Shown here: piece by piece, positions 26,145-47,131 of the stretch
Layout of the letters: each line of letters starts with the position of its first letter
Position numbering within the stretch: position 1 is the stretch's first letter
From: Fibrobacter succinogenes
GTDB taxonomy: Bacteria > Fibrobacterota > Fibrobacteria > Fibrobacterales > Fibrobacteraceae
Direction: 5' to 3'
Assembly: GCA_902762305.1 (NCBI GenBank)
Contig: CACWNW010000011.1
Location: forward strand, 62,001-126,000
DNA: 64,000 bases
Notes under the pieces: model-generated
Databases searched by the model: none
Seen by the model: the letters and a program-made list of their open reading frames with translations, nothing else
What the model was told of the DNA's origin: nothing
Translations under genes and position numbers: made by a program

Positions 26145-26196
26145 GTTGTAAATGTAGTTTTATTTTTTATATTGTATAAAAAAGGACACCGCAAGA

Positions 26197-27060
26197 ATGA
26201 CCGCACGCTCGTACAAAGTCGCCGGGCACGTGTTTACGCTCGAATCAGACCTCGACATCGACGAAGGTCTCCAGAACTACGCCCCGTTCGCCGTCCCGGC
26301 AGGCAGCGACGCTCCGGCCGTCTTCACGCTCGAAATCGTAGCAAAAGCCCCGCAGGCCGAATACACCGAAGAAGCGCGCCAAGACGAAGAAAGCCAGCAA
26401 ATCATATGCGGGCGCACCGCAGGCAACCAGAGCGTATTCGAATTCAGGCTCGCCCACAAGCCCGCGGGCACGCTCGTCTGCGAAGAAGGCTACAGGAAAT
26501 CCACCCTGTACCTAACCGATTTCGCGCAACGGTTCGGCATCAACAATGCCCTGATGGTACTCTACGCGCTCGCGACCGCGCCCCTCGGTACAGCACTCTT
26601 CCATTCGGCGGTTGTCGAGCACGATGGCTACGGCTACATGTTCCTCGGCAAGAGCGGAACCGGCAAGAGCACCCACGCGCGGCTCTGGCTCGAAAACATC
26701 GCCAATACGACGCTCCTGAACGACGACAACCCGGTGGTGCGCGTGCTCCCCGAAGGCATCCGGGTCTACGGCTCCCCATGGAGCGGCAAGACCCCCTGCT
26801 ACAAAGACGAATCTTACCCGCTGGGCGGCATCGTACTCCTGGAACAGGCTCCATTCAACAAGATCCGCGCCCTACGCGGAATTGAATCCTACGCGGCTAT
26901 ACTCACGAGCATCTCCGGCAAGCGCTGGGAAAAATCCATCGCCGACGCCCTGCACATTACCGAAAACGCAATTGCACGCGACGCTCGCGTTTGGCACATG
27001 CAATGCCTACCCGACAACGATGCGGCACGTCTCTGTCACGAAACCATAAAGGTTCGCTAG
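26197..27060 (+). CDS. HPr-kinase-like ATPase, RiPP tailoring type
   Basis: A 287-aa protein of the HPr kinase / PEP carboxykinase-like ATPase group. It has a P-loop GKSGTGKST at residues 151-159, an acidic pair in NDDNPVVRV, and the SPWSGKTPCYKDESYPLGGI segment seen in such stand-alone kinases. In paeninodin-type lasso peptide clusters a related kinase phosphorylates the precursor's C-terminal residue. That role here is inferred from the neighbours: peptidase-like, PqqD-like and ABC genes follow in an operon with gaps or overlaps of under 5 bp. True HPrK/P is longer and has a separate N-terminal domain. The ATG follows AAGGA at 26182. Confidence 0.85.
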   Translation: MTARSYKVAGHVFTLESDLDIDEGLQNYAPFAVPAGSDAPAVFTLEIVAKAPQAEYTEEARQDEESQQIICGRTAGNQSVFEFRLAHKPAGTLVCEEGYRKSTLYLTDFAQRFGINNALMVLYALATAPLGTALFHSAVVEHDGYGYMFLGKSGTGKSTHARLWLENIANTTLLNDDNPVVRVLPEGIRVYGSPWSGKTPCYKDESYPLGGIVLLEQAPFNKIRALRGIESYAAILTSISGKRWEKSIADALHITENAIARDARVWHMQCLPDNDAARLCHETIKVR

Positions 27061-27062
27061 GC

Positions 27063-27530
27063 ATGCAAAGGGAAAACAACATCGCGGCAAGCGACAACGA
27101 GATCCTCTCCGAAGCCATCCGGCTCGTGAGCGAAGGAATCGCCGTCACGTTTCCCGTCAACGGCAGGAGCATGCTCCCGTTCATCGTCGGCGGGCAAGAG
27201 AGCGTAATCCTCGAAAGGCCGCGCCCCGCACAAGTCGGCGATGTAGTCCTCGCCTATGTAGAGAACTGCCGTTACGTCATCCACCGCATCGTCAAAATCG
27301 ACGGCGAGCACATTACGCTCATGGGCGACGGGAACCTCTACGGAGTCGAGCACTGCCGCCTGCAAGACATCAAGGCGACAGCCACCCATGTCGTCGGCAA
27401 AGGCGGCAAACGCCGTTCGCTCGATTCAAACCGGTCAAGGCGCCGTGCCGCACTCTGGAGCAGGCTCAAGCCCATCCGAAAATGGCTACTATTGGTATAT
27501 CGCATTATCCGCAAGGTAAAAAGCTTATGA
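27063..27530 (+). CDS. S24/S26-type (signal-peptidase-like) protein
   Basis: A 155-aa protein with the serine peptidase motif NGRSMLP (Ser36) and a His in VIHRIV (His74). This Ser/His arrangement matches ER-type (SipW/Sec11-like) signal peptidases rather than the Ser/Lys type. Unlike those it has no N-terminal membrane helix; it ends in a basic amphipathic helix (WSRLKPIRKWLLLVYRIIRK) that could touch the membrane. It could remove a leader peptide during export, which is an inference from context. I chose the ATG at 27063, two bases after the kinase stop. The stop overlaps the next start (ATGA). Confidence 0.82.
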   Translation: MQRENNIAASDNEILSEAIRLVSEGIAVTFPVNGRSMLPFIVGGQESVILERPRPAQVGDVVLAYVENCRYVIHRIVKIDGEHITLMGDGNLYGVEHCRLQDIKATATHVVGKGGKRRSLDSNRSRRRAALWSRLKPIRKWLLLVYRIIRKVKSL

Positions 27531-27796
27531 AATTGAAAGAAGGATTCGTGCTGCGCGACGTGTGCGGCGAACAGGTCATCATGGGAGAAGGCATCGGGGC
27601 ACTCGACTTCGGGCGACTGCTCTGCCTCAACGAGACCGCGGCATACCTCTGGAAAAAGGCGGGCGAACAGGGTGACTTTTCCGCAGACTCCCTCGCCGAC
27701 GCCCTCTGTGAAGAATACGATGTGGCACGCGAACAGGCTCTTGCCGACGTGAACGCCATCGTCGGCGAATGGAAGAAGGTCGGCGTCGTAGAATGA
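27527..27796 (+). CDS. PqqD-like RiPP recognition element protein
   Basis: An 89-aa PqqD-family protein. It has the typical winged-helix plan: FVLRDVCGEQVIMGEG strands, then LNETAAYLWKKAGEQ, SADSLADALCEEYDVAREQALADV and the C-terminal helix VNAIVGEWKKVGVVE. PqqD-like domains bind leader peptides of ribosomal peptides and hand them to modifying enzymes. The start is the ATG at 27527, overlapping the upstream stop; the longer open frame lacks support. The TGA overlaps the ABC transporter ATG (ATGA at 27793). Confidence 0.9.
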   Translation: MKLKEGFVLRDVCGEQVIMGEGIGALDFGRLLCLNETAAYLWKKAGEQGDFSADSLADALCEEYDVAREQALADVNAIVGEWKKVGVVE

Positions 27797-29508
27797 AGTA
27801 CGTAGCCTGGCTATGGCAAAACACGCGAGGGACGCGCCTGAACGGCTCCGTCCGTATCGCGCTCGGGACCGCGCAAGTCGTGCTCGGGCTCCTGATGGTG
27901 TGGCTCTCCAAGCGATTCATCGACGAGACCATCCATACCGGCAGTCGCGAAGCCATCGTGCAAATGATTGTCCTGCTTGCGCTCACGGTACTCGGCCGCA
28001 TATTGCTCCGCCAGGTTTACTTCTACATGACGACGGTCGCGACGACCCGCAAGTCAAACGAGCTTCGCCTCAGCCTATTCTCGAAACTCTTTTCCAGGCG
28101 CCTCTTCGACGAAAAAGAACTCCACTCCGGCGATATCACCTCGCGCCTTTCCAAGGACATCGATGCCGTATCGGGCGTCGTCGCAGACACCATCCCGCAA
28201 ATGGTCGTCACCGGCATCCAGTTGCTGGGCGCATTCCTGCTCATGCGATTCTTCGACGCATGGCTCGCCTGGGCGCTCGTCATCTTCACCCCGCTCGCCA
28301 TTATCCTCGGGAAGTTCGTCGCGCGCAAGCTTAAGCGCATGACCCTCAACATCCGCGAAAAAGAAAGCCGGATACAGATGCACGTACAGGAAGGCGTCGA
28401 ATACAATGCGGTCCTCCGATCCCTCGGGAGCGAGCAGTGGATGGCCGACCGCCTCGACAACATGCAGCAGGAACTCAAGGGCAACGTACTGCGCCGCACG
28501 CGATTCTCCGTCATCACGCGTTTCATGCTGGGCATCGCCTTCGGGTTCGGCTACCTCGCCGCATTCATCTGGGGCGGTCTCGGGCTCTACCACGGCACCA
28601 TCACCTTCGGCGTGATGACATCGTTCCTGCAGCTCGTGGGTCAAATCCAGCAGCCCATCCTTTCGCTCCTGAACATGACCCCGCAGGTAATCCACTCCAC
28701 CGCAAGCATTGACCGCCTCGAAGAATTACAGGCAAGCAATTTCACCGAATCCGGCATGGACAGCGCGGTTGATAATGGAATAAAGGCAAATAACGACTTC
28801 GCGAACGGAACGAGCGGGCAAAAGTTAAACAGCGACATATTCGACAGAGCCGCAGGCATACGGTTCGACGACGTGACTTTCCGGTACGCGAAGGGCGACC
28901 GCGAAATCATCTCGCACTTCACGCACGATTTCAAGCCCGGCACAAAGACTGCCCTGATGGGCGAAACCGGCGTCGGGAAGACGACGCTTTTCCGGCTCAT
29001 TCTCGGGTTCATCGCACCCGCAAACGGAAGCGTCTCGGTATATGCGGCGCAGTCCAATTCGGGCGACAAGCCTGCAGCCTGCATTCACGCAGGCAAATCC
29101 ACGCGCATGAACTTCGTGTACGTTCCGCAGGGCAACACGCTCATGAGCGGCTCCATCCGGTACAACCTGCTCCTTGCAAAGCCCGACGCCACCGACAAGG
29201 AACTGGAGGCCGTACTGCACACCGCCTGTGCAGACTTCGTGTTCGAGCTCCCCGACGGTCTCGATTCCGAACTCGGGGAACGCGGCTGCGGGCTCAGCGA
29301 GGGCCAGGCACAGCGTATCGCCATCGCCCGCGGGCTTTTGCGCCCAGGCAGCATCCTGTTGCTCGACGAAATCAGCGCATCGCTCGACGAAGAAACCGAG
29401 CGCGAACTGTACACTCGCCTTTTCGCCGCCTACCCCGAAAAGACGATGCTCTTCATCACGCACCGCACCGCCGTAAGCGCCCTCTGCGACGAGACATTGA
29501 AGGTCTAA
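27793..29508 (+). CDS. ABC exporter (fused permease and ATPase), peptide-export type
   Basis: A 571-aa half-transporter. The N-terminal part (about residues 10-300) has six transmembrane helices of the ABC type I exporter fold with the LFSRRLFDEKELHSGDITSR segment. The ATPase (about 345-571) has Walker A GETGVGKTT (near 393), signature LSEGQ (near 500), Walker B ILLLDEISASLD (near 522) and switch His in FITHRT. It would form a homodimer in the inner membrane. As the last gene of the kinase-peptidase-PqqD operon it probably exports the modified peptide, as McjD does for microcin J25. A strong terminator follows. Confidence 0.9.
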   Translation: MKYVAWLWQNTRGTRLNGSVRIALGTAQVVLGLLMVWLSKRFIDETIHTGSREAIVQMIVLLALTVLGRILLRQVYFYMTTVATTRKSNELRLSLFSKLFSRRLFDEKELHSGDITSRLSKDIDAVSGVVADTIPQMVVTGIQLLGAFLLMRFFDAWLAWALVIFTPLAIILGKFVARKLKRMTLNIREKESRIQMHVQEGVEYNAVLRSLGSEQWMADRLDNMQQELKGNVLRRTRFSVITRFMLGIAFGFGYLAAFIWGGLGLYHGTITFGVMTSFLQLVGQIQQPILSLLNMTPQVIHSTASIDRLEELQASNFTESGMDSAVDNGIKANNDFANGTSGQKLNSDIFDRAAGIRFDDVTFRYAKGDREIISHFTHDFKPGTKTALMGETGVGKTTLFRLILGFIAPANGSVSVYAAQSNSGDKPAACIHAGKSTRMNFVYVPQGNTLMSGSIRYNLLLAKPDATDKELEAVLHTACADFVFELPDGLDSELGERGCGLSEGQAQRIAIARGLLRPGSILLLDEISASLDEETERELYTRLFAAYPEKTMLFITHRTAVSALCDETLKV

Positions 29509-29527: not shown

Positions 29528-29554
29528 AAAGTCCACGGCACTGCCGTGGACTTT
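29528..29554. terminator. Bidirectional terminator
   Basis: A near-perfect palindrome AAAGTCCACGGCA / TGCCGTGGACTTT with a one-base centre. It serves the ABC exporter on the plus strand and the esterase on the minus strand. Confidence 0.85.
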
Positions 29555-29602: not shown

Positions 29603-30775
29603 CTAAAGCGAAGTCTTGAACGACCTGTTGCCAATCTTCACGATGTACATGCCCTTGGCTCCGGTGTAGACCTTCAGGGCACCTGCGGTACCGCGGGTCG
29701 TGCTCACGACGCTACCCAGGCTGTTGAACACCGTGATGGTCTTGCCCTGAGCGCCCGCAACTACGATGTAGTTGTCAGAGGACTTGTAGACGGAAACTGC
29801 AGACAGGCTCGCATCCACAGGCAGAGCCAGTGTGGAGGAAGAATGTCCGCTCCAGTGATGATGGCTAGAAGAAGACCCGGCAACAACGCTGGAAGAACTT
29901 CTCGGGCCGACGACACTGCTGGAGGACTTCGCCACGTCAGAAGAAGAGGCGATAGCGCTGGAAGAGGATTCCGGCTGGCTGGCACCAATCGGGCCATCTA
30001 CGTCGTAACCCTTCACGAAGTTCCAGATATCCGAAACGTCTGCATGGGAAGGACTGTGCATGCGCCCTTCAAGTTTCAGGTGCTTTATATAGACGCCATT
30101 GTCGCAGGGGCCCCAGGAGTAGAGAGTCGCCTTGTTCTCGGCATTGGGATAATTCTCCTTGACTTCCGCCTGCGAGGGGCACTTGAACTGGTCACGGTAA
30201 TTCTTCAGGAATCCGTCGACCTGGCTATAATTCAACACATCGTCCTTGGTTCCGTGAGGATGGAAAATGGGCATAGGCCTTTGCGCCTTAGATGCGCCAT
30301 ACACATTCGTTCCGGAACAGGGGGCAATAGCCGCAATCTTGTCGGCAATCTTGCTTATCGCATGGTACGAGAACATGCCGCCCATAGAAAATCCAGAAAG
30401 GTAGACGCGTTTGGGATTGAGCTTGTAATCCTTGACCAACTGGTCAATGACCGCCGATATCCATTTGGTGTCCTGATCGCCACTGATGTCCCAGGCACTG
30501 TATCCTTCGCCGCCCTTAGGGTAGGCAACGACGAAACCGGCCGTATCGGCGACAGTTTCCCAGTGGGTATTGGACTGTTGGTAATCGGGGTCCTGGTTGG
30601 CGCCGTGCAACGAAAGCAACAGCGGGCTATTTTCGGCGAGGCCGGACGGTGCGTAGACATAGACATCTCGGCCCGAAACCGACACCTTCTTGTAATCACG
30701 AATGGTTTTTCCACCGCCACCCCATTGGGCGAAAGAAAGCGTAGCCGCAGCTAGCAGAAGTATTGGAAACTTCAT
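29603..30775 (-). CDS. Secreted CE1-like esterase (feruloyl/acetylxylan esterase type)
   Basis: A 390-aa protein: signal peptide (1-16), an alpha/beta-hydrolase domain of the PHB-depolymerase/CE1 group (about 25-250), a Ser-rich linker, and a C-terminal module ending KGMYIVKIGNRSFKTSL. The catalytic Ser130 sits in GFSMGG, Asp is likely in HGTKDDVLNYS, and His in HSPSHADVSD. LLLSLHGANQDP is the oxyanion-loop region. Such enzymes remove acetyl or feruloyl groups from xylan and so help xylanases; which ester is cut is not certain. The tail is like those of the GH43 and GLUG proteins here. Confidence 0.88.
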   Translation of the reverse strand: MKFPILLLAAATLSFAQWGGGGKTIRDYKKVSVSGRDVYVYAPSGLAENSPLLLSLHGANQDPDYQQSNTHWETVADTAGFVVAYPKGGEGYSAWDISGDQDTKWISAVIDQLVKDYKLNPKRVYLSGFSMGGMFSYHAISKIADKIAAIAPCSGTNVYGASKAQRPMPIFHPHGTKDDVLNYSQVDGFLKNYRDQFKCPSQAEVKENYPNAENKATLYSWGPCDNGVYIKHLKLEGRMHSPSHADVSDIWNFVKGYDVDGPIGASQPESSSSAIASSSDVAKSSSSVVGPRSSSSVVAGSSSSHHHWSGHSSSTLALPVDASLSAVSVYKSSDNYIVVAGAQGKTITVFNSLGSVVSTTRGTAGALKVYTGAKGMYIVKIGNRSFKTSL

Positions 30776-31085: not shown

Positions 31086-33587
31086 ATGAAGTTCGCGTTT
31101 AAATGTTTTGGTGCGCTTGTAACCCTCTTTTACGGTTTATCTTTTGCAGCCTATTCCGGCACTCCGCAAGCACCCGCTAAAGTGGATGGATGTTACCAGA
31201 TAGCGTCAGCAGAAAACCTTTATGGCTTTGCAAGGCTGATGAACGACACGGCAAACGGCCTTGCACAGGACCCCGAAACCTGCGCCAAACTCACCTCCGA
31301 TATCGTCATCAACGACAATGTCCTTAAAAACGACACGCTCGACGACAGCCGAACAGACTTCATCCCATGGGAACCCATCGAGATTTTCAGCGGTTCCTTT
31401 GATGGACAGGGACACTCCATTTCGGGGCTGTACTACGACGATTCGCGCGTATATTCCGAAACTAGCATTCCCGCAGGGCTTTTCAGAAAAATCAGTCCTG
31501 CCGACACCTCAAAAGTTCCTTCCCCAAGACCTTCCGTAAAAAACCTGGGGATTGTCGAATCCTATTTCAACGCAAGGGGTATTGTCGGCGCAATAACCGG
31601 CGAAGCGACCTATCTTGAGATATCCAGATGTTACAACAAAGGAATCGCCATCGGCGGTTTCTATACCGGAGGGCTAGTCGGCTGGGGAATAGGAATATCC
31701 ATTTCGGAGTCCTACAACGAAGGATTTGTCTATGCAAGAGACAGCTATTACGCTTATTCACAGACACAACTTTATGCAGGTGGAATCATCGGCATGATTT
31801 ACACCAAGGACAATTACATCAAGAACGTTTACAACGCAGGCCCAACCAAGGCTTACAAAGCGGCTGGAGGACTCATCGGAAGAGTTGCCATGGAAGGAAC
31901 CCGGCTCTTTCTCAACAATTCGTTCAACGTAGGAACGATAAACAACGGCTACAGCGGAGACCTCATCGCAAACCAAATCAAGACAACCTACGTAGAAACA
32001 TCATCGACATTCAATATCCGAAGCAAAGCCACCGACACCGACTCGCTAAGGACTGCCGAGGATTTCGCAAGCGGCCTCATCGCGTTAGTCCTGCACAACT
32101 CGCCCGACGGAAACGTATGGGGACAGAATGTCGGAACAGATACCCACCCCACCCTTACCGGTCAAATAAACGGTTATTCGGGCAACGCCAAGATTTCTAA
32201 GCTCACCTTCAAAACCTACGAAGGCGACACCTTGAAATACCCAGACGGCTACGTAGAAGGCTTTGAACTAAAGCTCCCCGTCTCCACAAGGAAGGGGTAC
32301 GTTTTTGCCGGCTGGTACAGCAACGAAAACGCCGAAGGAATATCCGTAAAAAAGATATCTGCACAGGAAAAAGGCGACATCACCTTAACTGCCAAATGGT
32401 GGGGAAAGCCGACATTTAAGGACAACTGCTACGAGATAGCCTCCGAGGGAGACCTCTATGCATTCGCCGCCATTGTCAACGGGACCGACGGGATGGAAAA
32501 GGATGTGGATATCTGCGGCAAGCTGACCCAGGACATCGTTCTCAACAGCGTCGAAAAACGCCAATGGACTCCGATCAATTATTTCCAGGGGACCTTTGAC
32601 GGACAGGGACATTCCATTTTGGGACTTTATCTGAACGACAGCGACCAAAACTATGTCGGCCTGTTTGGACGAAATATTAAGGGATCCGCAGAAAAGCCCG
32701 TAACCATAAAGAACCTCGGACTTGTCGATTCCTACATAACCGCAAGCTGGTATGTAGGCGCTATCGTCGGATCCCAGACCGGCAAGCTAATTCTTGAAAA
32801 CGTGTACAGTACAGGATCGATGAGGTCCTCGAACTATGGAGGTGGACTTGTGGGCTACGTATACGGAAACACAACCATCATCAACTCTTACAGCGCATCC
32901 AACACCAATAATGCAGCCGGGCTTGTCGGCGGGCTTAATTCCAGTGCGACCGTTTCAATTATCAATTCATTCAATTTCGGATCCTACAGAGACTACATTT
33001 TCATCAACGCCGATCTTGTCGGGAAAAAGGACTCCACTAACGTAGTTTCAATTATCCACTCCTTCAATCTGAACGGAAAAACCTCGGATTACACTGGGGA
33101 AGCCAAAGACTACCTTTCGTTCGCGGACGGTTCACTCGCCAAGGCATTGCACGACTACAACGAAGACGGCATCGACGGCTCTATCTGGGGAGAAGAAGTC
33201 GGAGTCGACACCCACCCGGTCCTGTCCGGCAAAATCACCTTCTCGGGCGACCCAATTGTACCACAGACATCGTCTTCTTCGACAACGGAAAGTTCCAGTT
33301 CCAACGCGGAATCAAGTTCCTCAACCACGGAAGAAAGTTCCAGTTCCGAACAGTCTATCTCCTTAAAACAGGTTCCAGTGGTTAGCTATGCAAGGATCAA
33401 GACGCACGGTTCCTCGCTCGTCGTCGAAAACTTTGCGGGTTCTGTTTTTGTATTCGACATGAACGGAAACCTAGTCAAGCAAGTCCACTCGAATGGATTC
33501 ATCCAAATCCGCCTTCCCAGAACCGGAGCCTACATCATCAGAACCGGCGGCCTTTTTCACCGTATCACCCTAGGCAGCCACCACTGA
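31086..33587 (+). CDS. Secreted GLUG-motif surface protein with InlB-type repeat
   Basis: An 833-aa exported protein. After a signal peptide (1-21) come two blocks of the form CYQIASAENLYGFARLM / FDGQGHSISGLY (about 38-140 and 448-520). Each is followed by GLUG-type repeats (IVGAITGEATYLEISRCYN, GGLVGYVYGNTTIINSYSA). Between them (about 372-440) is one InlB/Listeria-Bacteroides repeat (GYVFAGWYSNENAEG). A Ser-rich linker (about 722-755) leads to a C-terminal sorting-like module (SVFVFDMNGNLVKQV, GAYIIRTGG). Such proteins are thought to act in adhesion; the partner is unknown. Confidence 0.85.
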   Translation: MKFAFKCFGALVTLFYGLSFAAYSGTPQAPAKVDGCYQIASAENLYGFARLMNDTANGLAQDPETCAKLTSDIVINDNVLKNDTLDDSRTDFIPWEPIEIFSGSFDGQGHSISGLYYDDSRVYSETSIPAGLFRKISPADTSKVPSPRPSVKNLGIVESYFNARGIVGAITGEATYLEISRCYNKGIAIGGFYTGGLVGWGIGISISESYNEGFVYARDSYYAYSQTQLYAGGIIGMIYTKDNYIKNVYNAGPTKAYKAAGGLIGRVAMEGTRLFLNNSFNVGTINNGYSGDLIANQIKTTYVETSSTFNIRSKATDTDSLRTAEDFASGLIALVLHNSPDGNVWGQNVGTDTHPTLTGQINGYSGNAKISKLTFKTYEGDTLKYPDGYVEGFELKLPVSTRKGYVFAGWYSNENAEGISVKKISAQEKGDITLTAKWWGKPTFKDNCYEIASEGDLYAFAAIVNGTDGMEKDVDICGKLTQDIVLNSVEKRQWTPINYFQGTFDGQGHSILGLYLNDSDQNYVGLFGRNIKGSAEKPVTIKNLGLVDSYITASWYVGAIVGSQTGKLILENVYSTGSMRSSNYGGGLVGYVYGNTTIINSYSASNTNNAAGLVGGLNSSATVSIINSFNFGSYRDYIFINADLVGKKDSTNVVSIIHSFNLNGKTSDYTGEAKDYLSFADGSLAKALHDYNEDGIDGSIWGEEVGVDTHPVLSGKITFSGDPIVPQTSSSSTTESSSSNAESSSSTTEESSSSEQSISLKQVPVVSYARIKTHGSSLVVENFAGSVFVFDMNGNLVKQVHSNGFIQIRLPRTGAYIIRTGGLFHRITLGSHH

Positions 33588-41762: not shown

Positions 41763-42947
41763 TTAAAAAAGTTCGCGAATCGAGGCCTTGCGCAACTTGA
41801 TGCGGTAGGGAATCGAGCGGATGAACCGTTTCCAGTAGGTCACTTCTGACCAGAAGACCTCCGACGGAGCGAAGGACCGGAAACGCAGCGCACGACGGCG
41901 CCGGAAGAACCACCTCGGGATAATCGAAAGGGCCTCCCCCTTCTCGTAGTATCCGAAGTTGCCACCTCGGAGAATCTGCTCCAGCATCAGTTTGCCGCGG
42001 GAAGCATCCGGAGCGCAGAGCATGCGTTCCCGTTCAAGCCCGAACACATACCCGAGCACCCACATAAGCGCACCGCACATGCGATAGAACCCGAACTTGC
42101 GGAGCTGGAGGGCAATTTCTTCCCGATCGGAAGCCGAAGCGTTCTGCAGCAGAACGAAGTAGTCGGCAACCTGCTTGAATCCTATACCACCGGCGACAAA
42201 ATGGCGCTGGATATGCGAGAACTGCATAGCAAGCGCAAACTTAAGCGACGGGATATAGAAGCCCTCCGGCGCAAGTTCCGTATGCGCGAGTTCAGCGAGA
42301 AGGTAGCGCTGCAGCCTCCGGTTCGTAAACGGGTTCAAGTTTCCCGATGAAGGCCGGAAATGCACCTCGACGCTGACTCCGTTCATTTTTTGCACAAGAT
42401 GCACATGGTGTCCGGAAACCGCAAGCTTTCTCTTCGCCATGGCATAAAGTTCTTCACGGGACTTGCCATGAGAAAGGAAGAAGGCTTCCATCGGTGCGGG
42501 CGAAATCATCTTGAGATACTGCAGGAGGGCGACGACCTTCTCGCGGCCGCCATCGACCCAGATGTCGATATCGCCGCACTGCCGCATAAACTTGTCCGGG
42601 TACAGGCGCGCATTGGCGGCCCCCTTCAAGATGACGGTACGCCTCCCCTGCTTCTGGAAAAGCTCGGTAAGGTGCGCAGCCTCTTCATTTATCAGGCGGT
42701 TATGCCCGCGGATAGCCTCGGCTTCGCTCGCCCACTGGAGGGCGAGGTTCAACGGCGGCTGCCGGTCCTTCGGGAGTTTGCAGATGCCCGCATAAGCGAT
42801 GCCCACCACCGAAAGTTTGGACGCCAGAGAATACAAAAGAGACCACTCTTTGGCGGTCTCTACGTTGAAATTAGCACACTCCCCCTCGCCTGCACCGAAT
42901 GCAAGCCGAATGAGGGTGAAGAGTCTTTCCTCCGAACCTGGAATCAA
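41763..42947 (-). CDS. Nucleotidyltransferase family protein (PF14907-like)
   Basis: A 394-aa protein of the NTP_transf_5 type. It has ILKGAANARLYPD, the metal-binding GDIDIWVDGG (Asp126, Asp128), and a helical C-terminal half (FSHIQRHFVAGGIGFKQVADYF). Members occur next to lasso-peptide and related RiPP genes, including those with HPrK-like kinases. The reaction on the peptide is not known. It starts with TTG (42947), three bases after the stop of a 45-aa peptide gene, in what looks like one transcript with two peptide genes. The partner genes (kinase, PqqD-like) are at 26-29 kb. Confidence 0.85.
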   Translation of the reverse strand: MIPGSEERLFTLIRLAFGAGEGECANFNVETAKEWSLLYSLASKLSVVGIAYAGICKLPKDRQPPLNLALQWASEAEAIRGHNRLINEEAAHLTELFQKQGRRTVILKGAANARLYPDKFMRQCGDIDIWVDGGREKVVALLQYLKMISPAPMEAFFLSHGKSREELYAMAKRKLAVSGHHVHLVQKMNGVSVEVHFRPSSGNLNPFTNRRLQRYLLAELAHTELAPEGFYIPSLKFALAMQFSHIQRHFVAGGIGFKQVADYFVLLQNASASDREEIALQLRKFGFYRMCGALMWVLGYVFGLERERMLCAPDASRGKLMLEQILRGGNFGYYEKGEALSIIPRWFFRRRRALRFRSFAPSEVFWSEVTYWKRFIRSIPYRIKLRKASIRELF

Positions 42948-43100: not shown

Positions 43101-43211
43101 TTAGTTGCGCTCGATAAACTCTACTTCCATGCTTTCACTCAACAGGTCTGCAGAATGATCCAGTTCAACAACCTTCATTTCGGGCGCTATGTATTCCTTT
43201 TTTTCGTTCAT
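43101..43211 (-). CDS. Putative RiPP precursor peptide 1 (36 aa)
   Basis: Reads MNEKKEYIAPEMKVVELD, followed by HSADLLSESMEVEFIERN. It shares the leader pattern KEYxxPEMKxVxLD with the next peptide, while the C-terminal part is different, as expected of leader and core regions. Its ATG lies two bases after the stop of the 1276-aa surface protein gene; the ribosome site is weak. The tail SMEVEFIER closely resembles SMEVDFVER near the C-terminus of that surface protein. Confidence 0.68.
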   Translation of the reverse strand: MNEKKEYIAPEMKVVELDHSADLLSESMEVEFIERN

Positions 43212-43213
43212 AA

Positions 43214-46200
43214 TTAACGGACCATAACCTGTTTACCGTTAAAATAGTAAATTCCCTTGGTTGTTGGCTTGGCATTCAGTTTGCGGCCCTTCATATCGAA
43301 CCAGCCGTTTACAGCCTTAATTTCGCCAGAAATGGGTTTTACTTTACTTATGACGGTCGTTTCTTCGACTTCCGCTTCAGTTTCGGCTTCAACTTCACGT
43401 TCAACAAAGTCTACTTCCATGGAATTGGAACCGGAGCCATTGTTGATAGAAGCCGTCTGTGCAGAAACATAGGCAGCCTTAGCCAAAAAACGGCGGGCAG
43501 ATTGCTGAACAGAGGACAGCTCTTCCGCCTGGGTATTGTAAAGGTAACCGCGCAACGGCTTAATATAAGCACCGGCACCTACTCGTTTAAACTTTCCAAC
43601 CTTTTCAGGGTCAGGATCAGAATTTGCGACAAAGCCCCAAGCCTGCCTATCACCGGACGGCCAATCAATACGAGAGTACACACCTCTAAATTGCCATTTG
43701 CCGCCATCCTTTTCACTGACCGGGACAACAACATCATTGGTGTTCATAACAACACTATCTCCATCAGCGATATCGATTATGAGCGTATCAGAGGTCGGCA
43801 CAAAGATATACGGCGTATTGGCCTGGATTACTCCGCCTGCAACGTCATTATAGAACACGGCCTTAGGCACGTTTTCATCGACATACGCAAATTCCTTGAA
43901 AGAACCACCCGAAATCTTGGTCGTGTCAATCGAGAACGGAAGCATAATCGTAGAATTCTTCCCGACCGTAAACTTGCGGACAAATTCCACATGGTTCACA
44001 GAAATATCCGACGGAATTTCAACCGTTTCCGAAGAATTGGTATTGATTTGAGCGGTCTTCGATCCATCAGCGTTCTCGAAAACCTTGATGGCGCCATAAT
44101 CGTTGACCAGGAACGGATAGACCTTTTCCCACTTGGCGTAGAAATGAGCCTCGCCAGTAGAACCAGCCGCAATACCAGCCACCGGCTCTTCAGCGTCTTC
44201 ACTTACGAACCAGCCCAAGAAATTGTATCCAGTCTTAGACGGGTTATTGAGATCAATATTTCCGTCTTCAACCGTGTACGTTTCCGGATTCGGCGTCTCG
44301 AACGTCGCACCTTCGATATTGTGGTAGACAATTTGGAATGCTTCAGGTGTCCACTTAGCGTAGAAAGTCTTGTCGCCAGAGGAACCTAGCGGGACTTCCG
44401 TCACGGCTTCGCCTTCGAAGTCGGGATTATCGTACCAGCCATCGAAAGTGTAACCCTCACGGCCCGTAGCATTTCCCAACGCGAAGGTTGCCGTTTCGCT
44501 CGTGTAAGACGTTCTGCTGTTAGCCTTCTCACCACCATTCAACACATAGGAAAGGGTATAGACCTTAATCCACTTTCCGTACAGAGTAATGTTACCATAA
44601 GAGCCCTTTGCAATCTGCGTAACCTTTGTTGTATAATTTGTTTCTTTATACCAACCACCAAAATCATAACCTTCACGCGACTGGGGATACTTTATGTCCT
44701 TTTTATCATTAATCGTATATGTCGTCGGATTCTGAGGGTTATTTACACAACCATCACATTCGTAAGTAATCGTGTAAGTCGCCAAGCTCCACGACGGGTA
44801 CAGCGTAACAGGAGCCACAACCGTATATTCTTCGCCAAGTTCATAACCCTTTGCTCCACCCATAGTTGTCGACCAACCATTCTGTTCGTAGCCCGCACGG
44901 CGGAAAATGCCCGCAGATTCGAGAGTGATGGTGGTTCCATGTTCCACAAACTGGTCCGAAATGGAACCGTAGGAATTATTGTCGGCCAAATACATGATCC
45001 TGTATGTTTTCTTGGACCACTTGCCATAGAAGGTCTTGTCACCTGTCGTTCCCTGAATTACCTGAGTCGCCTTGTTGGTGAAGGCGGCATCATAGAACCA
45101 GCCTTCAAATACAAAGCCTTCGATATCAGCCGGAGCCTTCAGGGCAAAAGATGTATCGATAGTATAGGAACTGGGATTGTCGCCCGTATCCGTACCCTCA
45201 TTCATTACATAACTGATATTGAAACGCTGGAGAGTCCACTTAGCATATAGAATAATGCTCTGGTTTATTTGTGATGCAAATTCGTATGCATTTACGCCAT
45301 TCGAATCAGTAAACCATCCGGCAAATACATAACCATCATCCGCAATCGGGTCCGTCGGAGCAGAAACCGTATCTCCAGCCCCCACGCGAACATAATCCAC
45401 AGTCGTTTTTCCATGCTGATTAGCATTATAGGTCACGGTATAGGTTTCCACATCGGTCCATACGGCATGCAAGACAAGATCATCAGATGCAGTCACGGTA
45501 TCCAAAGAAACCGAATCACTTTCATGAGCTCCTGCAGTCAGCGCCCAACCGGTAAAGTAGGACCACGTTTCGCATTCATCTTCCGATCCCGATACATAAT
45601 TTTTGCAGCGGGATGACGGCAAGGTTCCAAGCCCCTCGACAGTAATCGTTTCTCCGCTAACAACCTGCTTTGTTTTTACACTATCGTTAGATTCCGGGAA
45701 AACACCGGGAGCCACATTGAAGGTCACCGTATAAACCGGAGTCCAAACAGCAAAGACAGTGTCACTCTTAGAAACCGTACCAAGATCAGCAGCCGGTGCA
45801 GCAGCATCACGGGTCTTAGCCCAACCAGCAAAACTGTAATTTTCACGAGACGGATTTTCTATTTCATCGGCGGTGATTGCCATTCCGCCATCAAGGAATT
45901 TATTCTTGTCCGCTTTTCCATTGGCAAAAGCACCTCCGTTCGCATCAAAGACAATCTTGTAACCGTCTGCACCATACCCATTGAGCGAAAGGGACGTTTC
46001 ACCAATGGACCACGGTTCCGTCTTGCAGGCACCAGTTGTTGAATCTATTCCGTTCAACGCACATGCAATGGAATCCTCATTGATTTCACTCGTATTTACG
46101 GTGCTATCGGTTACCGAACAATCCTTACAAGTTTTACCAACACCAGAAATTGGCTCGCCTTGATAAGAAATTCCTGCTCCCTCATAATAGCTATCATCTG

Positions 46201-47044
46201 CAGTCATCGTTCCAGACCAAACATTTCCGGTAATTCCGCCAACAGAACCTTCTGAACCTGTATTCGTGAGTCCAGGACCAGCATAAACACAAGAGGTAAC
46301 AATCACATCCGTCTTGGTGATACCGATAATGCCTCCGACATACGCCTTGCTTCCGCTCGTCTGGATTTCGACAAGGCTCATGCAATTGGATATAGTACCC
46401 TTTTTAGCATTACCCACAATGCCACCGACGCCCTGGCTTTTGCCCGTCGTCTTGATGGTTCCCGAAGTAATGCAGTTATCAACGACATTGGTTCCTTTAT
46501 CGGACATCCAGCCGACAACAGCTCCGACCGAAATCTGGTTGTCCTGATTACTAATAATGGTACCGGCATTCGTCGTGGCCTGGATATCCACATTTTCAAG
46601 GACCAGATTCAAGACTTTTCCATCACCCAGCACTCCGACAAAACCAAGATTCTGGGCGTACTCTTTATTGATGGCAGAAAGTTCATCTCCATTTACGTAA
46701 AGATTCTTGATTATATGGTTCTGCCCATCAAATATCTTTCCATAAAACTTATCGCCCTTTCCGGCTGCCAGCGGAATCCAAAGATGCCCACCCAAATCCA
46801 GGTCGGCAGTCAACTTGGCATTACCATTATTATAGTTCTTTGCGTACCAAGCAAGCTTTGCTGCTGTATTTATTTCGTAGAAACCATTAACAAGGCAAGG
46901 TTCTTCCTTAGTTGAACCATCCCATACAGCATTATTGCTGTTTTGAACACAAGCCGCAAACACCTGCCCGACACCGAGCAGGCAGAACAGGAGAATCCCG
47001 AGCAGGGTTCTTTGAGAGGAAGTTTTCAAGAGTGAACTAAACAT
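43214..47044 (-). CDS. Large secreted protein with GLUG motifs and eight InlB-type repeats
   Basis: A 1276-aa exported protein. The signal peptide (about 1-31, LLGILLFCLLGVGQVFA) is followed by a GLUG/pectate-lyase-like part (about 40-330: GKIFDGQNHIIKNLYVNG, GAVVGWMSDKGTNVV). Eight InlB/Listeria-Bacteroides repeats follow (about 355-930), each closing with a GW....F/YxxW pattern such as GYVFAGWFTDSNG and LYAKW. A linker rich in Glu (about 1208-1235) leads to a C-terminal module ending KGIYYFNGKQVMVR, like other exported proteins here. The start at 47044 has GAGGTG at the right distance. An adhesin role is inferred. Two peptide genes and a nucleotidyltransferase gene follow directly. Confidence 0.87.
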   Translation of the reverse strand: MFSSLLKTSSQRTLLGILLFCLLGVGQVFAACVQNSNNAVWDGSTKEEPCLVNGFYEINTAAKLAWYAKNYNNGNAKLTADLDLGGHLWIPLAAGKGDKFYGKIFDGQNHIIKNLYVNGDELSAINKEYAQNLGFVGVLGDGKVLNLVLENVDIQATTNAGTIISNQDNQISVGAVVGWMSDKGTNVVDNCITSGTIKTTGKSQGVGGIVGNAKKGTISNCMSLVEIQTSGSKAYVGGIIGITKTDVIVTSCVYAGPGLTNTGSEGSVGGITGNVWSGTMTADDSYYEGAGISYQGEPISGVGKTCKDCSVTDSTVNTSEINEDSIACALNGIDSTTGACKTEPWSIGETSLSLNGYGADGYKIVFDANGGAFANGKADKNKFLDGGMAITADEIENPSRENYSFAGWAKTRDAAAPAADLGTVSKSDTVFAVWTPVYTVTFNVAPGVFPESNDSVKTKQVVSGETITVEGLGTLPSSRCKNYVSGSEDECETWSYFTGWALTAGAHESDSVSLDTVTASDDLVLHAVWTDVETYTVTYNANQHGKTTVDYVRVGAGDTVSAPTDPIADDGYVFAGWFTDSNGVNAYEFASQINQSIILYAKWTLQRFNISYVMNEGTDTGDNPSSYTIDTSFALKAPADIEGFVFEGWFYDAAFTNKATQVIQGTTGDKTFYGKWSKKTYRIMYLADNNSYGSISDQFVEHGTTITLESAGIFRRAGYEQNGWSTTMGGAKGYELGEEYTVVAPVTLYPSWSLATYTITYECDGCVNNPQNPTTYTINDKKDIKYPQSREGYDFGGWYKETNYTTKVTQIAKGSYGNITLYGKWIKVYTLSYVLNGGEKANSRTSYTSETATFALGNATGREGYTFDGWYDNPDFEGEAVTEVPLGSSGDKTFYAKWTPEAFQIVYHNIEGATFETPNPETYTVEDGNIDLNNPSKTGYNFLGWFVSEDAEEPVAGIAAGSTGEAHFYAKWEKVYPFLVNDYGAIKVFENADGSKTAQINTNSSETVEIPSDISVNHVEFVRKFTVGKNSTIMLPFSIDTTKISGGSFKEFAYVDENVPKAVFYNDVAGGVIQANTPYIFVPTSDTLIIDIADGDSVVMNTNDVVVPVSEKDGGKWQFRGVYSRIDWPSGDRQAWGFVANSDPDPEKVGKFKRVGAGAYIKPLRGYLYNTQAEELSSVQQSARRFLAKAAYVSAQTASINNGSGSNSMEVDFVEREVEAETEAEVEETTVISKVKPISGEIKAVNGWFDMKGRKLNAKPTTKGIYYFNGKQVMVR

Positions 47045-47131
47045 AACACACCTCTTTTTTTGCAAAAATATGAACTTTTCGCAAATTATACCAAAAACAT
47101 AACAAGAAAAACAGATGTGCAGCCTAAAATC

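Follow-up and report, generated by a model that had tools for sequence, protein, structure and literature searches.

Likely LPP-like RiPP machinery with dispersed precursor genes in a Fibrobacter succinogenes genome

The stretch of DNA considered here, referred to as the window, is a 64,000-nucleotide piece of contig C11 of a 3.6 Mb genome (G000) of a rumen Fibrobacter succinogenes, and positions 26197-29508 within it hold four plus-strand genes joined by a 2-bp gap and two ATGA overlaps. These encode, in order, an HprK-like, an S24/S26-like, a PqqD-like and an ABC protein, with a divergent LptE-like gene on one side and an inverted repeat on the other. Judged from sequence and by analogy with a known system, the operon is likely to be the machinery of a ribosomally synthesised and post-translationally modified peptide (RiPP) pathway, similar to that of the Linear Polyphosphorylated Peptides (LPP), which would make linear phosphorylated peptides from precursors dispersed around the genome. 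The features are as follows.

26146-26173 (+): promoter-like site 5' of the operon, a weak consensus match that is not by itself evidence
26197-27060 (+): HprK/PEPCK-fold kinase, LppK-like, 287 aa, with the Walker A motif GKSGTGKST and conserved LNDDNPVV and SPWSGKTPCY blocks
27063-27530 (+): putative leader peptidase, soluble S24/S26 (archaeal-type signal-peptidase-like), LppS-like, 155 aa, with invariant Ser36, His74, Asp89 and Glu96
27527-27796 (+): free-standing PqqD-type RiPP recognition element (RRE), LppB/B1-like, 89 aa, the sole PqqD match in the genome
27793-29508 (+): one-chain ABC exporter (transmembrane domain followed by nucleotide-binding domain), MsbA/CydD-like and LppD-like, 571 aa, with no peptidase domain
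29528-29554: perfect 13-bp inverted repeat just 3' of the operon, terminator-like by eye and absent from the terminator-scan list

A first-pass annotation of the window had described an HPrK-like gene, a Ser/His peptidase-like protein without a membrane anchor, a free PqqD-like protein and a fused ABC exporter, and these descriptions hold, as do the coordinates and junctions of the cluster. The kinase has no match in Pfam and its NCBIfam matches all lie far under cut-off, the nearest being ScmC (31.8 bits against 125), with HprK-related kinases at 14-15 bits. Its predicted structure (pLDDT 94.7) matches the PEPCK and HprK/P folds and the Walker A motif and both further blocks are conserved across 29 sequences, and on this model the product is a PEPCK/HprK-fold kinase. 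The peptidase matches PF00717 (25.2 bits, cut-off 23.3), its best NCBIfam name is TIGR02228 at 26 bits, under the 51.9 cut-off, and its fold is that of LexA and signal peptidases (Foldseek probability 1.00, E only ~1e-3). Its four candidate catalytic residues are invariant in 17 sequences from two phyla, and it lacks any transmembrane segment, its highest mean hydropathy over 19 aa being 1.28. The PqqD-like protein matches PF05402 at 53.4 bits, and the exporter carries ABC_membrane and ABC_tran in a single chain. Searching PDB sequences with the kinase, peptidase and RRE gave marginal matches only, for example LexA, HprK/P and TfuB1.

The closest described counterpart is the lpp biosynthetic gene cluster of Paenibacillus alginolyticus (Popov et al. 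2026, Nat Commun, PMC13381572), which encodes an SpI-like peptidase (LppS), a discrete RRE (LppB), an HprK-like kinase (LppK), a nucleoside triphosphate (NTP) transferase (LppN) and an MsbA-like exporter (LppD). In that system, where the roles of kinase, RRE and peptidase were shown experimentally, the precursor leader reads YxxPxVLxHQxIxFETxxS, LppK phosphorylates core Ser3 several times, and the leader is removed after Thr-1 by LppS with LppB. No effect of LppN was seen on heterologous expression, neither the end product nor what it does is known, and the authors describe the family as confined to Bacillota (PMC13381572). The Fibrobacter set shares with LPP the HprK-like kinase, the discrete RRE adjoined by an archaeal-type SpI-like peptidase, the NTP transferase, the MsbA-like exporter without a peptidase domain, the YxxP precursors, the absence of a cyclase and a serine two residues past the probable cut. 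The first-pass annotation had proposed a candidate new RiPP system, a label that is not supported, since the core set had already been published for Bacillota.

Two other known systems share part of this gene content. The phosphorylated lasso peptides paeninodin and pseudomycoidin also have an HprK-like kinase, a PqqD-like B1 protein, a nucleotidyltransferase and an ABC exporter, and from these shared genes it might be argued that the operon is a decayed or split lasso system, its cyclase and B2 protease lost or located elsewhere. The first-pass annotation had noted the lack of both enzymes, and we consider such an origin very improbable. PF13471, the transglutaminase-like B2 family, is found in no genome of the genus that was searched, and G000 has only a partial Asn_synthase match (65 residues, 21.6 bits) on another contig; no macrolactam cyclase linked to the operon was found. 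Furthermore, an S26-type peptidase takes the place of B2 in all complete loci, the precursors have no lasso core pattern and their leader has YxxP rather than WxxP. The SynChlorMet cassette (ScmC/ScmD) and the HPr-rel-A system of NCBIfam likewise combine an HprK-related kinase with a PqqD-related protein; however, scores against these models are far below cut-off and the operon has no radical SAM gene.

Two of the substrates proposed for the operon lie elsewhere in the window, in a tight minus-strand array of surface protein, PepA, PepB and nucleotidyltransferase separated by 2, 12 and 3 bp.

41763-42947 (-): nucleotidyltransferase PF14907, LppN/PsmN-like, 394 aa, 147.7 bits
42951-43088 (-): putative precursor PepB, 45 aa, MENRKEYKEPEMKIVHLDARINLLDGSDETGGELGLAPHDQDPLA
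43101-43211 (-): putative precursor PepA, 36 aa, MNEKKEYIAPEMKVVELDHSADLLSESMEVEFIERN, with a core resembling SNSMEVDFVER of the upstream protein
43214-47065 (-): secreted surface protein, 1283 aa, with InlB/Listeria-Bacteroides repeats and a stop codon 2 bp before PepA
43217-43426 (-): C-terminal module of that protein (A4), short and similar to the C-terminal domains (CTDs) of type IX secretion system (T9SS) cargo, ending WFDMKGRKLNAKPTTKGIYYFNGKQVMVR

The two peptide genes at 42.9-43.2 kb, which the first-pass annotation had picked out, are real, and the nucleotidyltransferase that they precede is the only PF14907 gene of the window, 13 kb from the operon. This distance could be taken to mean that the short YxxP reading frames are not precursors and that the operon acts instead on a protein, a cofactor or the like. 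We regard this as very improbable, as peptides, nucleotidyltransferase and operon are contiguous in congeners, in many of which a PF14907 gene heads the operon, directly upstream of the kinase, co-directional and often with short overlaps; as the peptides and the machinery are present and absent together; and as YxxP is a known RRE-binding motif. The split arrangement is itself common to the close relatives of G000. Additional PF14907 genes without a recognised adjoining precursor are also seen in Fibrobacter (L085, L086, L087, L095-L098 and L103).

The precursor family comprises 119 distinct peptides, 94 of them non-redundant, with a leader of the pattern YxxPxMxVV...LLxxS. Numbering from the leader tyrosine, Tyr1 and Pro are kept in all 94, Met6 in 86, Leu17 in 88, Leu or Met18 in 88 and Ser21 in 82, and if a register shift of one residue is allowed then 93 of the 94 place a Ser or a Thr at +3 relative to the L-L/M pair. 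The 39 precursors used as a seed were chosen from YxxP reading frames in part by visual inspection, and their motif counts are for that reason not independent, making the profile-free test given below the cleaner one. The leader is basic, whilst the remainder is variable and acidic (26% D/E). There are up to 13 precursor genes in a genome whereas the machinery is usually single, and most precursors are scattered at a distance from the machinery genes; G000 has four in total, PepA and PepB at 43 kb and single precursors on contigs C5 and C8.

Conservation was followed both within the genus, in 80 genomes (G000 and G018-G096), and more widely in a scan of ~85,000 species genomes that gave at least 574 relatives. 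Within the genus a kinase match is found in 72 of the 80 genomes; of ten further genera in the family, one has a match. The best 80 of the at least 574 relatives belong to Fibrobacter and Bacteroidales, including Prevotella sp. tf2-5. The first-pass annotation had suggested a neighbourhood analysis, and this finds the order HprK-S24-PqqD(-nucleotidyltransferase)-ABC complete in 55 of 80 loci from Fibrobacter and Bacteroidales, many of the remaining loci stopping at a contig edge, which argues that the arrangement is not due to chance. Co-occurrence across the genus, by Fisher tests uncorrected for phylogeny, gave p values from 6e-4 to 2e-8 among kinase, RRE, nucleotidyltransferase and precursor (HprK/PqqD 2e-8, HprK/nucleotidyltransferase 2e-4, nucleotidyltransferase/precursor 5e-5), and in G018, G046 and G088 the kinase, nucleotidyltransferase and precursors are jointly absent. 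YxxP peptide genes are a consistent feature of related genomes. The system is conserved in Fibrobacter and in many rumen Bacteroidales, and its occurrence in two Gram-negative phyla appears to be new. The gene set was not found described for Bacteroidota in the literature, and HPr kinase, S24 and nucleotidyltransferase go unmentioned in a survey of Bacteroidales RiPPs (PMC10352776).

Some variation on this arrangement was seen. The kinase and peptidase are fused into a single protein in two Fibrobacter genomes, at L072 (7747-9159, 470 aa) and L020, and at L090 (4093-7262, in G075) there is an operon of nucleotidyltransferase, PqqD and ABC genes without a kinase and with no recognised S24 gene between, which may be a degenerate or an alternative form. 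A recent transfer of the kinase between Fibrobacter and Bacteroidales was considered and rejected, as the tree groups by phylum, with 4 label changes against ~24 when shuffled and no well-supported mixing.

Modelled on LPP and lasso biochemistry, the pathway would begin with the PqqD-like RRE binding the YxxP leader of a short precursor, and the HprK-like kinase would phosphorylate the near-invariant Ser21. The soluble S26-type peptidase would cut off the leader shortly before this serine, the likeliest site being behind the L-L/M pair at 17-18; a cut after residue 18 would make Ser21 the third residue of the core, as is the phosphorylated serine of LPP. The PF14907 nucleotidyltransferase may add a nucleotide- or sugar-derived group onto the phosphate, in the way that the pseudomycoidin nucleotidyltransferase adds hexoses, and the ABC protein would export the core peptide. 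A single machinery is envisaged to serve several cassettes of surface protein and peptide, in G000 those of PepA, PepB and the C5 and C8 precursors. The first-pass annotation had anticipated much of this, and apart from the claim of novelty its reading is supported, as an RRE-dependent pathway of kinase, nucleotidyltransferase, S26-type peptidase and exporter that acts on the 43-kb YxxP peptides without lasso closure. Neither of the two findings that it had named as refuting, a lasso cyclase linked to these genes or related loci consistently devoid of a YxxP peptide gene, was encountered. What it had overlooked are the scattering of the precursors, the almost one-for-one match between precursors and surface proteins that carry a common C-terminal module, and the presence of the system in Bacteroidales.

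Several observations weigh against this LPP-like reading. In the genome of the window the precursors and the nucleotidyltransferase are 13 kb away from the operon, both the HprK-like protein and the RRE score under every curated NCBIfam cut-off, and the counts are uncorrected for phylogeny. The invariant acid of the peptidase is 15 (Asp89) or 22 (Glu96) residues from the histidine, compared with a spacing of 25 in LppS (S29/H68/D93). The Fibrobacter leader shares YxxP and the terminal xxS with the LPP consensus but has no VLxHQxIxFET, and the distance from Tyr to Ser is 20 residues rather than 18. LPP loci are described as confined to Bacillota, where they are frequent neighbours of capsule loci or paeninodin clusters and have 1-3 precursors inside the cluster, whereas the present loci belong to Fibrobacterota and Bacteroidota and have scattered precursors, each tied to a surface-protein gene. 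As the second half of the leader, its length and the phyla differ, and as LPP was compared by its published description, the system is better regarded as a new variant that probably works like LPP than as a proven member of that family.

Among the precursors that stand first in their array, 80 of 96 in the fetched loci begin within 60 bp, typically 1-20 bp, behind a gene on the same strand. Of the upstream proteins that could be evaluated, 53 of 57 have a signal peptide by a simple rule, compared with 209 of 524 among the other genes. A common C-terminal module, with the consensus PxxIDV...GxTTxxGxLNTxTGEIxxxRWFDLKGRKLNGKPTxKGxYxxNGKxVIxK, is found on at least 73 of 80 upstream proteins, whilst a comparable tail occurs in 10 of 467 other open reading frames, several of which also precede precursors at a larger gap. 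Ahead of the module are InlB/Listeria-Bacteroides repeats, BspA-type leucine-rich repeats or GLUG motifs. The relationship holds when approached from the module: a search of G000 gave exactly three strong matches (E<1e-23), directly behind which are all four precursors of the genome, and a precursor stands behind 30 of the 31 module genes that were looked at in G000 and its near-complete relatives. In the profile-free check an ATG-initiated reading frame with YxxP and LLxxS in the expected positions stands behind 24 of 27 module genes, compared with 2 of 432 other genes. In genomes free of the machinery the best module match is 4e-8, and none is strong. Among the fetched Bacteroidales loci a YxxP peptide lies behind 9 of 10 strong module genes; in L215 (7869-10052) the gene of a 727-aa module protein is inside the machinery operon between S24 and PqqD, and in L212 and L219 a module-protein gene stands directly before HprK, overlapping the start of HprK by 4 bp. 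This pairing of RiPP precursors with surface-protein genes can be read directly from the genomes and appears to be new.

Two other secreted Fibrobacter proteins of the window, encoded at 29603-30775 (-) and 31086-33587 (+), have a different C-terminal tail and no adjoining YxxP gene, and the paired module is therefore a distinct tail subfamily.

What the pairing means is a matter of gene context. As the precursor, or pair of precursors, lies directly behind the gene of a module protein, its product may act with or on that co-expressed protein, although we put this forward tentatively. A more specific version, to which we would give no greater weight, is that the peptide tailors or anchors T9SS cargo as its partner, being exported to the periplasm after phosphorylation and (glyco)nucleotidylation and there binding or joining the C-terminal module of its neighbour, so steering its secretion, cleavage or attachment. 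Consistent with this are the near one-to-one pairing in two phyla, the Bacteroidales module genes in or directly before the machinery operon, and the SprA component of the T9SS translocon encoded in G000. The last ~33 residues of the module resemble the short CTDs of Prevotella intermedia (PMC11969387), with which it shares a short tail on large surface proteins, a Tyr/Gly/basic motif, a GxY motif and a basic end, and motifs like B, D and E of those CTDs are visible; unlike them it has an extra conserved segment of ~30 aa (LPETIDV...TGEI) and a precursor gene behind. Against this, no Por_Secre_tail or other T9SS model in Pfam or NCBIfam matches the partner proteins at E<=0.1, for which reason their status as T9SS cargo is a suggestion. 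Nothing was found in the literature linking RiPPs with T9SS.

The cores themselves speak for some partners only. PepA has the core SESMEVEFIER, which resembles the segment SNSMEVDFVER of its own partner ~60 residues from the end of that protein (z 7.1), and such likeness exceeds z 4 in 7 of 72 cores, the segment lying ~50-60 residues before the C-terminus, with 0 of 72 in the leader control. The remaining 65 cores have no such similarity, which weighs against the T9SS-partner explanation, and the idea that all cores copy the tail of the partner was rejected as a general rule, being true for about 7-10 of 72.

It would seem less probable that the processed peptides serve as antimicrobials or signals that leave the cell through the ABC protein, with the surface-protein gene sharing the transcript only to supply delivery, reception or immunity. 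The RRE, leader and exporter resemble those of bacteriocin pathways, and variable, acidic cores, several to a genome, would suit such a role; no immunity gene was recognised, however, the kinase is present throughout most of the genus, unlike the patchy distribution of bacteriocin loci, and the partners, which are repeat proteins of an adhesin-like type, have a single tail in common.

It is conceivable, at less than an even chance in our estimation, that in Fibrobacterota and Bacteroidota the surface proteins secreted by the type IX route depend on modified linear peptides from the LPP-like machinery, be it as ligand, as anchor or as a tag for maturation, each module-protein gene having its own precursor gene immediately behind it and some cores copying a strand beside the module of the partner; if so this would be a RiPP class with a role in building the cell surface. 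The function of LPP is unknown in the sole published account, and the pairing with surface proteins makes the purpose of such peptides directly testable by genetics. The family would also reach two phyla beyond Bacillota, with the pathway in ~90% of sampled Fibrobacter genomes and many rumen Bacteroidales, organisms that are central to fibre digestion.

Finally, a subfamily of secreted proteins of ~320 aa (L146, L147, L148, L157, L159 and L162) has paired precursors with a conserved core up to YCDELG, after which some have FNVDKSMNPKA, such that conservation here extends beyond the leader and into the core.

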